Origin: an uncultured Ruminococcus sp.
GTDB taxonomy: Bacteria > Bacillota_A > Clostridia > RUG12999
Length of the DNA: 5,883 nt
Assembly: GCA_902783995.1 (NCBI GenBank)
Contig: CACZTG010000237.1
Span: 1-5,883 of the forward strand
Direction: 5' to 3'
Shown: positions 1,023 to 2,356 of the stretch, piece by piece
How positions within the stretch are numbered: position 1 is the stretch's first letter
How the letters are laid out: the number at the start of each line of letters is the position of its first letter
Notes under the pieces: generated by a model
What the model was told of the DNA's origin: nothing
The model's database searches: none
What the model saw: only the letters and a program-made list of their open reading frames with translations
Made by a program: the position numbers and the translations under genes

Positions 1023-2087
1023 TTAAAGCGTTACCGTCCAGCCGAAGGTATCTTCAAGAGTTCCGTTCTGAAGCCCTGTTATGGTATCATAAAGCTTTTG
1101 GCTTACAGGTCCTATATCTCCGCCGTTTATCGTCATAACATCGTCTTTATAACGAAGCTTGCCCACAGGTGAAATAACCGCAGCCGTGCCTGTTCCGAAA
1201 ACTTCTTCAAGAGCGCCGGATTTCTGCGCGGCGATAAGCTCGTCCACGGATATTTTTCTTTCCTCAACCTCGTAGCCCCAGCTCTTACATACATTTATAA
1301 CGGAATTTCTTGTTATACCGGGCAAGATACTTCCACTGAGCATGGGAGTAACAATTTTGCCGTTGATTTTGAAAAAGATATTCATAGCGCCGACTTCTTC
1401 AATATACTTACGCTCAACACCGTCAAGCCAAAGTACCTGAGAATATCCGTCGTCATGAGCCTTAACCTGCGCCGCAAGGCTCGCCGCGTAGTTGCCGCCT
1501 GTTTTAGCGAAGCCTATACCGCCTCTTACGGCTCTTACATACTCGTCCTCAATCCATATGCCGACAGGCGCAAGACCGCTTGCGTAATAAGCGCCGCTCG
1601 GAGAAAGTATAATTATGAAAAGATAGGTTTTTGAAGGCGCAACACCAAGAAAATCGTCTGTCGCGATAACAAAGGGACGAACATAAAGCGATGTTCCGGG
1701 CTCTGTCGGAACCCAATCGCTGTCAACCTCAACAACAGTTTTAACCGCCTGTACGAAATCCTCCTCCGGGATTCTCGGTATGCAAAGTCTGTCATTTGAA
1801 GCGTTTGCTCTTTTTGCGTTCATATCGGGACGGAAAAGCCTTACCTTGCCGTCTTTTCCCTTATAAGCTTTTAAACCCTCAAACATTTCCTGTCCGTAAT
1901 GGAAAACCATACTTGCCGGCGAAAGAGAAAGATTCTGATAAGGAATGACTCTCGCGTCATGCCAGCCTTTACCCTCGGTATAGTTCATAACGAACATATG
2001 GTCAGTGAAAATTTTACCGAAGCCGAGAGGACCTTTAAAGTCCGGAATTTGTTTTGGTGATTTTGTCTTTTCAATTCTGATGTCCAT
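1023..2087 (-). CDS. ilvE: Branched-chain amino acid aminotransferase
   Basis: A 354-residue fold-type IV PLP enzyme (EC 2.6.1.42) that moves the amino group between glutamate and 2-ketoisovalerate, 2-keto-3-methylvalerate or 2-ketoisocaproate. Length and sequence fit the larger type II (BCAT2-like) group. Landmarks are YGQEMFEGLKAY at 64-75, YVRPF at 135-139, the PLP lysine Lys195 in AKTGGNY, Glu231 in the EEVGAMN segment (pyridine nitrogen contact), SGSILPGITR at 251-260 and the phosphate-binding FGTGTAAVISP at 297-307. The redox CxxC of mitochondrial BCATs is absent; that position reads AVIS. AGGAGT sits 7 nt before the ATG. It is the first structural gene after the attenuator (2128-2350), so its expression is probably set by branched-chain aminoacyl-tRNA supply. 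It is followed by the P-loop ATPase after 4 bp and then by the oxidoreductase genes, which share its keto-acid substrates. Confidence 0.96.
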   Translation of the reverse strand: MDIRIEKTKSPKQIPDFKGPLGFGKIFTDHMFVMNYTEGKGWHDARVIPYQNLSLSPASMVFHYGQEMFEGLKAYKGKDGKVRLFRPDMNAKRANASNDRLCIPRIPEEDFVQAVKTVVEVDSDWVPTEPGTSLYVRPFVIATDDFLGVAPSKTYLFIIILSPSGAYYASGLAPVGIWIEDEYVRAVRGGIGFAKTGGNYAASLAAQVKAHDDGYSQVLWLDGVERKYIEEVGAMNIFFKINGKIVTPMLSGSILPGITRNSVINVCKSWGYEVEERKISVDELIAAQKSGALEEVFGTGTAAVISPVGKLRYKDDVMTINGGDIGPVSQKLYDTITGLQNGTLEDTFGWTVTL

Positions 2088-2127: not shown

Positions 2128-2157
2128 AAAAAACCCGTAACCCCATGCGGTTACGGG
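2128..2157 (-). terminator. Intrinsic terminator of the ilvE leader (attenuator segments 3:4)
   Basis: On the minus strand CCCGTAACC (2157-2149) pairs perfectly with GGTTACGGG (2142-2134) around a 6-nt GCATGG loop, followed at once by six Ts (2133-2128). This is a textbook rho-independent terminator in the minus-strand direction. It lies between the leader ORF and ilvE, so it would stop transcription about 41 bp before the ilvE start codon. Its position inside the leader of its own operon, not at a gene end, marks it as an attenuator. The 5' arm (2149-2157) can pair instead with 2214-2226, which would abolish the terminator. Confidence 0.93.
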
Positions 2158-2226
2158 CTGTAAAGACAGAAATAAAAATGCGAAAAAAGCAAATTCACTA
2201 TCTTCTATAAAAGCGCATAACTCGCA
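2146..2226 (-). promoter_or_regulatory. Predicted antiterminator (attenuator segments 2:3)
   Basis: In the minus-strand RNA, UGCGAGUUAUGCG (2226-2214), in the last codons of the leader ORF, is complementary to CCCGUAACCGCA (2157-2146), which holds the 5' arm of the terminator. The pairs are UGCG/CGCA, one bulged A (2222), then GUUAUG/CGUAAC with one G-U pair, one C-C mismatch and a closing G-C. The intervening loop is about 56 nt. Forming this duplex uses 2149-2157 and so excludes the terminator. Found by hand alignment, with no energy calculation. Confidence 0.72.
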
Positions 2227-2312
2227 GTGGTATTCGTCACGACCTTAATAATCAGGCTCACGAATATCACGACTGCAAGGGCTATGACATTAATAGAAGC
2301 GATTGCAAGCAT
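2205..2312 (-). CDS. Branched-chain leader peptide (ilvL-like), 35 residues
   Basis: A 35-codon ORF from ATG at 2312 to TAG at 2207-2205. AAGGAGT (2327-2321) lies 8 nt before the start, as good a ribosome binding site as any in the window. Six Ile, six Val and five Leu make up 17 of 35 residues, with IALAVVIFVSLIIKVV at residues 10-25 as the core; the ending is TNTTASYALL. This resembles in character the enterobacterial ilv leader peptide, whose run of Val/Ile/Leu codons senses tRNA charging. The last codons (2226-2214) double as an RNA segment that can pair with the terminator arm. Its translation, more than its product, is likely to matter. The core could also be read as a single transmembrane helix, so a small membrane protein is the alternative, but that would not explain the overlapping competing RNA pairings. 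Confidence 0.85.
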   Translation of the reverse strand: MLAIASINVIALAVVIFVSLIIKVVTNTTASYALL

Positions 2313-2320
2313 TTTTGTTT

Positions 2321-2327
2321 ACTCCTT
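2321..2327 (-). promoter_or_regulatory. Ribosome binding site of the leader peptide
   Basis: AAGGAGT, 8 nt before the ATG at 2312. It supports the view that the short leader ORF is really and strongly translated, which the attenuation model needs. Confidence 0.88.
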
Positions 2328-2356
2328 AAGCTAATAATCAATTTTATTTTATTATA

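Follow-up and report, generated by a model that had tools for sequence, protein, structure and literature searches.

The ilv attenuator of Escherichia coli is built from four mutually exclusive RNA segments, and the enterobacterial ilvGMEDA and ilvBN operons of the acetolactate pathway carry before their first gene a terminator and an Ile/Leu/Val-rich peptide of ~32-35 amino acids. T-box leaders share the outcome of leader-peptide attenuators, namely read-through when the tRNA is uncharged. The E. coli ilvGMEDA leader is described as a peptide of 32 amino acids with 15 branched-chain residues (PMC6123439). The sections of two articles that deal with such leaders report ribosome-mediated attenuation of branched-chain genes in Staphylococcus aureus and Listeria monocytogenes, and its prediction in Lactococcus, Streptococcus and Corynebacterium (PMC5794164, PMC6123439). 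The S. aureus ilv-leu attenuator, as outlined in PMC5794164, has a Leu-rich leader, lies before ilvD and is combined with CodY, while in bacilli a T-box and a leader peptide are described on the paralogous genes hisS and hisZ (PMC2965389).

Here we describe a locus in a 5,883-nucleotide stretch of DNA from an uncultured Ruminococcus sp., the whole of which is referred to below as the window. We assign a probability of roughly 0.88 to the reading that this locus holds a classical ribosome-mediated transcription attenuator, predicted from fold models to sense charged branched-chain tRNAs and to control an operon of ilvE and 2-oxoacid:ferredoxin oxidoreductase genes. It resembles the enterobacterial ilv leaders in its Ile/Leu/Val-rich peptide and its terminator ahead of the first gene, a likeness of architecture, but the genes concerned are ilvE and those for 2-oxoacid:ferredoxin oxidoreductase and an acyl-CoA synthetase, not those of the acetolactate pathway. 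With the S. aureus ilv-leu attenuator it has in common the phylum Bacillota, a leader peptide, a terminator and branched-chain genes; unlike that system as presented in PMC5794164, its leader mixes Ile, Val and Leu, its gene set is different, and CodY was found in none of 11 relatives (0/11), the control search being positive in Bacillus subtilis and Lactococcus lactis. A literature search, with most subscription journals outside it, found no report of leader-peptide attenuation for clostridial branched-chain genes or for an operon of ilvE and 2-oxoacid oxidoreductase genes. The mechanism of attenuation is known; within the reach of our searches, the lineage, the gene set and the exchange of sensors at the ilvE operon are new.

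All parts of the locus lie on the minus strand of the window, where promoter, Shine-Dalgarno sequence, leader open reading frame (ORF), terminator and ilvE follow one another in the order required for an attenuator. The sigma-70 promoter (2385-2357) combines TTGACA (2385-2380), a 17-nt spacer and TATAAT (2362-2357) with a TG before the -10 element, matches at 12 of 12 positions, and is the best of four promoter-like sites in a scan of positions 1900-2600. An AAGGAG Shine-Dalgarno sequence (2327-2322) read from the sequence precedes the leader ORF (2312-2205), taken from the ORF list and its translation, which encodes a 35-codon peptide, MLAIASINVIALAVVIFVSLIIKVVTNTTASYALL, with 17 Ile/Leu/Val residues; this fraction, 0.486, is the highest among the 65 complete ORFs of at least 25 amino acids in the window. 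Lying with its own Shine-Dalgarno sequence between promoter and ilvE, the ORF is translatable by sequence, and its translation is predicted. An antisense ORF of 35 amino acids (40% Ile/Leu/Val) lies over the leader at 2227-2334 of the plus strand and is probably only a mirror of the leader's codon content. Ahead of ilvE, the first structural gene, sits an intrinsic terminator of 9 bp (2157-2149 with 2142-2134) with six T at 2133-2128 and a computed energy of -16.1 kcal/mol.

Beyond the terminator, an AAAGGAG Shine-Dalgarno sequence (2102-2096, read from the sequence) introduces ilvE (2087-1023), a branched-chain amino acid aminotransferase by its matches to TIGR01123 (423.8 bits, cut-off 250) and NF009897 (506 bits, cut-off 307). 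It is followed, 5 bases downstream, by the start of a P-loop ATPase of unknown role (1018-329), with a ParA-like match below cut-off and no NCBIfam match at E 0.001; by a ferredoxin-type subunit (308-102) that matches Fer4 families and whose start codon was picked by eye from the ORF list; and by the start of a VorB-like alpha subunit of 2-oxoacid:ferredoxin oxidoreductase (82-2), which runs off the window. The latter was assigned by matches in relatives, which reach 96% over 24 amino acids, the counterpart in the relative L251 being VorB. No promoter-like site was found at the scan threshold between terminator and ilvE, and ilvE should therefore depend on read-through.

To represent translation in fold models, the ribosome was mimicked by deleting the RNA up to 11 nt beyond the A-site codon, and ViennaRNA was used to compute how probable the terminator helix is at equilibrium; these stall models describe truncated RNA and not the kinetics of folding. 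In the models, segment 1 (2278-2258) is the first part of a run of control codons, codons 12-23 (LAVVIFVSLIIK; 2279-2244), of which 8 of 12 specify Ile, Leu or Val and at which modelled stalls weaken or remove the terminator. Segment 2 (2239-2212) takes either segment 1 (through its 2239-2222 part) or segment 3 (through its 2226-2212 part, which adjoins the leader stop codon) as its partner. Segment 3 (2159-2146) serves as the antiterminator strand and contains the 5' terminator arm (the arm proper being 2157-2149), and segment 4 (2142-2134), read from the sequence together with the U tract (2133-2128), completes the terminator. The spacer between segments 2 and 3 (2207-2165) folds in the nascent RNA as a nested hairpin of the antiterminator. 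The full-leader fold (z = -4.2; none of 200 shuffles equally stable) contains a 1:2 helix of 17 pairs, 2278-2258 with 2239-2222, and in it the leader Shine-Dalgarno sequence is partly paired (2328-2323 with 2166-2161). The nascent fold contains a 2:3 helix in which 2226-2223, 2221-2216 and 2214-2212 pair with 2149-2146, 2155-2150 and 2159-2157, respectively. In the modelled folds the 1:2, 2:3 and 3:4 helices of the window exclude one another.

The modelled terminator depends on where the ribosome stands. Without a ribosome, segment 1 pairs with segment 2 and the terminator forms with a probability of 0.996. This value is 0.98-0.99 for a ribosome at codons 1-8 and 0.82-0.96 at codons 9-11; it is 0.54 at codon 12, 0.06-0.12 at codons 13-15, 0.63-0.69 at codons 16-17, 0.04-0.41 at codons 18-22 and 0.60 at codon 23, and it is 0.98-1.0 from codon 24 to the stop codon (0.99 at the stop codon itself). 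With the 11-nt offset, values below 0.7 are confined to stalls in codons 12-23, with a minimum of 0.04, and values below 0.5 occur at eight positions, codons 13-15 and 18-22. With footprint offsets of 6, 8, 9, 11, 13 and 14 nt the stall profile keeps its shape and moves by a codon or two. When segment 4 is still unmade, the probability that segment 3 is paired upstream averages 0.89 for stalls in mid-leader and 0.21 for those near the stop codon. The parts, their order, their exclusive folds and this dependence on stall position are thus all computed for the window itself.

These results bear directly on a preliminary description of the locus made from its sequence. The consensus promoter, the short ORF with a strong ribosome binding site and 17 of 35 codons for branched-chain residues, and the perfect 9-bp terminator with six Ts were all present as described. 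The 1:2 pairing, proposed as 2279-2261 with 2236-2221, was recovered by modelling with slightly different limits, and the nascent fold agrees with the 2:3 pairing proposed as 2226-2214 with 2157-2146. The claim that these pairings exclude each other and the terminator in the right order agrees with stall folds that terminate without a ribosome and at the stop codon, and the suggested comparison of folds with and without ribosome-blocked bases, once run, showed loss of the terminator only around codons 12-23. The overall reading as a four-segment attenuator is supported by the position of the stall window on the branched-chain run and by the Ile-rich leaders found before ilvE in five other genomes.

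In the mechanism that we propose, a ribosome supplied with ample Ile, Leu and Val would reach the stop codon and cover segment 2, so that the 3:4 terminator would form; with no ribosome on the leader, the 1:2 helix would form, and the terminator with it. A ribosome stalled in codons 12-23 would cover segment 1, segment 2 would pair with segment 3, and this 2:3 pairing would let the polymerase read through into ilvE. In the cell, starvation would be expected to stall the ribosome, and read-through would be expected to rise.

The switch is rare among randomised sequences. In 300 dinucleotide shuffles covering the start codon to the terminator, the minimum of 0.04 was never reached, and eight positions below 0.5 were seen once. 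Among 300 random synonymous leaders, the minimum was reached in two and as many low positions in three; any position below 0.5 occurred in only seven, with none in the other 293. Since synonymous recodings so rarely switch, the RNA holds information beyond what the peptide requires. In the nascent model, the mid-leader pairing value was reached by 0 of 150 shuffles and the difference between mid-leader and stop by 1 of 150. The duplex energies taken alone are ordinary (72 of 500 shuffles were as good for 2:3 and 81 of 500 for 1:2). By these models, the switch effect arises from the whole antiterminator including the nested hairpin, which has an energy of -24.8 kcal/mol with the ribosome stalled at codon 21.

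The rarity of the switch also bears on a different reading of the same parts, in which the 35-amino-acid ORF would encode a small hydrophobic membrane peptide (or one resembling a type I toxin), the hairpin would be the terminator of its transcript, and the ilvE promoter would lie elsewhere. The peptide is, by eye, hydrophobic enough to span a membrane, and a strongly folded transcript with a partly paired Shine-Dalgarno sequence would suit such a gene, but a promoter-like site between terminator and ilvE is lacking at the scan threshold, the stall switch lies on the Ile/Leu/Val run and is absent from nearly all synonymous recodings, the order of leader, terminator and ilvE is kept in five relatives, and in a further relative, L027, a T-box occupies that very place. 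We regard this reading as highly improbable.

The distribution of the attenuator was followed through ilvE and its neighbours. Among the matches listed from named genomes, 80 ilvE loci (77-85% identity, many titled ruminant-gut Clostridia) yielded no recognisable leader in the 420 bases upstream of ilvE, of which L019 and L062 had only 1 and 13 bases; short ORFs filtered as leader candidates at 14 of these 80 loci were rejected by eye. A search of 394 genomes with the neighbouring ATPase led to ilvE loci with a consensus promoter, a Shine-Dalgarno sequence, a 38-codon Ile-rich ORF, a hairpin and a terminator. The family to which these loci belong comprises 63 genomes, for 28 of which the region upstream of ilvE was fetched, and an Ile-rich leader with its own promoter and terminator stands before ilvE in five of its genomes, G098, G416, G263, G215 and G417. 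Within the nine fetched loci L131-L139 (ilvE 78.9-83.1% identical), the leader is present in five and absent from four, and the leaderless loci appear, by eye, to continue from the upstream gene. When the G263 leader peptide was searched against the 394 genomes, the three matches below E 0.001 were to carriers already known; six of 17 weaker loci were inspected, and the one short ORF seen there (L172) was judged not to be a leader. In a scan for hairpins followed by T before ilvE (160 upstream regions, repeats included), only L027 was added as a strong, close terminator; the other loci had weaker or more distant hairpins, and in the four that were read a leader was not seen. The leader is thus restricted, not general, among ilvE loci.

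The five relatives' leaders are in frame over 38 codons and carry a run such as LIIAIIIA, and their final codons, AICRA, are invariant and form their segment 2. Cells of the alignment are paired in 158 of 175 cases for 1:2, 138 of 155 for 2:3 with the nested hairpin and 55 of 55 for 3:4, with few two-sided changes among the stem pairs. In the full-length equilibrium fold all five keep the terminator at every tested stall (probability at least 0.86), and a switch appears only in the nascent-RNA model, where upstream pairing of segment 3 persists until the ribosome is close to the stop codon. This drop is rare among shuffles in three of the five (2, 3 and 2 of 150) and ordinary in the remaining two (18 and 25 of 150); in all five, the mid-leader pairing is no better than that of shuffles (67-132 of 150 as high). 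By these models the relatives' fold evidence is weaker than that of the window, so their case rests on conservation and architecture. The window leader itself has no visible similarity to the five. A close relative of the window, sought through the ATPase, PheA and ilvE in 394 genomes of one order and 10 of one family, was not found: the best identities were 65%, 56% and 83%, respectively (85% for ilvE among the matches listed elsewhere), and, as far as can be judged, none of the compared genomes belongs to the genus of the window.

The codon content of these leaders helps to weigh the idea that the attenuator would sense slow translation generally, for example under ribosome-targeting antibiotics, and not branched-chain amino acids. 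In the model a stall at any of codons 12-23 works, and such leaders are described for resistance genes (PMC10314930). Against this, two thirds of the window's control codons (8/12) specify Ile, Leu or Val, the relatives' leaders carry their own isoleucine-laden run, and the controlled gene is a branched-chain aminotransferase; the idea strikes us as even less credible than that of a membrane peptide.

A second type of sensor was found at the same operon. L027, titled Clostridia bacterium RGIG2893 and originating from goat omasum, has ilvE, ATPase, ferredoxin and oxidoreductase in the order of the window, and directly before ilvE it carries a T-box (RF00230; 101.3 bits, cut-off 93) whose specifier was read by eye as AUC, for Ile. 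With Rfam at gathering thresholds over 60 loci, this was the one T-box directly before ilvE; the other T-box among these loci (L058, 6030-6265) lies ~2 kb past ilvE. The L027 leader is thus like that of the window in operon and position, and unlike a leader-peptide attenuator it reads the tRNA directly through Stem I, without translation of a leader. Computation places Ile-rich leaders at the equivalent site in five relatives and a T-box at that site in another.

The T-box control of this operon in L027 also lends some colour to the notion that the window's leader is itself an undescribed tRNA- or metabolite-reading element, a T-box or riboswitch, with an incidental ORF. The leader strand of the window, however, gave no Rfam match at E up to 1, T-box included (the sole match at that threshold, IS128 at E 0.14, is on the opposite strand and far below cut-off), the switch needs a ribosome-sized block at Ile/Leu/Val codons, and five relatives have preserved the 38-codon frame; of the explanations considered we find this one the least believable.

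An exchange of sensors is seen at ilvB too. In G143 (L241 / L266), ilvB is preceded by a promoter, a Shine-Dalgarno sequence, a GTG-started leader, VAAQYYTEVIIIIVLVLGLIVRVPCHVNKDFAANEGKV, with the branched-chain run EVIIIIVLVLGLIV, and a terminator, GCCCTGCAG...CTGCAGGGC, and no T-box was called before it, whereas in G089, which belongs to the same family of ten genomes, a T-box precedes ilvB. This arrangement is like that of the window, before a different gene and with a weaker fold switch: in the full-length fold the terminator is kept at every stall (probability 0.99-1.0), and among 150 shuffles the nascent drop was reached by 18 and the mid-leader pairing by 6, so that the modelled fold evidence at G143 ilvB is weak. 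The T-box leader of G089 (L267, 2115-2521, 407 nt) apparently has two Stem I elements, with the AGAGA and GGRTGGTGC motifs occurring twice, and one T-box antiterminator; read by eye, AUC (Ile) and CUC (Leu) seem to be its specifiers, and it is possibly a two-amino-acid T-box. T-boxes occur in all 11 relatives searched, over cut-off in 10. T-box and leader peptide are likewise described as replacing each other at the related genes hisS and hisZ of bacilli (PMC2965389), there for histidine and on a different operon, here for branched-chain amino acids.

Several expectations of the preliminary description need amendment in this light. It named T-boxes and CodY as the usual regulators of clostridial branched-chain genes, and the first part stands, with a T-box on the same operon in L027, while CodY was found in none of the 11 relatives. 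It called a ribosome-sensing attenuator unusual here, which is right only to a degree, such attenuators being already on record for branched-chain genes of Bacillota in the portions of PMC5794164 and PMC6123439 cited above. The leader, whose conservation among ilvE orthologues it proposed to examine, is present in five genomes, was not recognised at the 80 loci listed first, and is absent from four of the nine closest orthologues fetched in one family.

The window ends at the start of the VorB-like gene, and the full operon is a feature of the relatives. By tblastn, each of the five genomes with a leader has its eight genes on one strand and in the same order: ilvE, ATPase, ferredoxin, three oxidoreductase subunits, an XRE-cupin regulator and acyl-CoA synthetase. 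Protein family scans of the operon were done on L251, where IlvE (TIGR01123, 421 bits) and VorB (NF005507, 531.5 bits) are both over cut-off, the other two oxidoreductase subunits match 2-oxoacid oxidoreductase families best, below cut-off, and the synthetase matches MbcS best, below cut-off, with Pfam AMP-binding over cut-off. The XRE-type regulator with a cupin domain (L251, 3855-4409, minus strand) is flanked by the genes of the oxidoreductase gamma subunit and of the acyl-CoA synthetase, is present in all five leader genomes, and could be a second layer of control. Downstream of the operon in L251, a THF riboswitch (1886-1982, minus strand, 91.9 bits) precedes an ECF-type transporter gene. 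P-loop ATPase matches at E 1e-30 or better occur in 219 of the 394 genomes, and ferredoxin and VorB matches stand beside the ATPase in 29 of the 30 best fetched loci.

In rumen cultures, Leu, Ile and Val are described as being formed from branched-chain acids (PMC7356843). The operon would run in this direction, from branched-chain acid to acyl-CoA, 2-oxoacid and amino acid. In G098, G215, G263 and G416, for which genome completeness is not given, ilvB and ilvC were both unmatched; G417 has ilvB and, at a contig end, a weak partial match to ilvC. A switch induced by starvation, whichever the sensor, would fit a building and not a burning role, and we infer that the operon serves to convert branched-chain acids to the corresponding amino acids and is induced when the latter run short. 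Taken jointly as one claim, in which we place some, if qualified, confidence, gut-type Clostridia without detectable CodY, and in several cases without the acetolactate route, would build their branched-chain amino acids by activating and reductively carboxylating branched-chain acids with acyl-CoA synthetase, 2-oxoacid:ferredoxin oxidoreductase and IlvE; a starvation switch would hold back the operon, with T-box and leader peptide interchanged as its sensor at one site, and the sensor would reveal the building direction.

If true, these readings would widen the range of leader-peptide attenuation, bringing in the ferredoxin-dependent branched-chain route and a clostridial lineage in which CodY was not detected. 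With some relatives carrying a leader peptide before the operon and another a T-box, the locus would make a clean case for studying the replacement of one RNA sensor by another. The control region would also supply an argument, from sequence alone, for the direction of an enzyme that is able to make or burn branched-chain 2-oxoacids, a direction that bears on the use of branched-chain fatty acids by gut and rumen bacteria.
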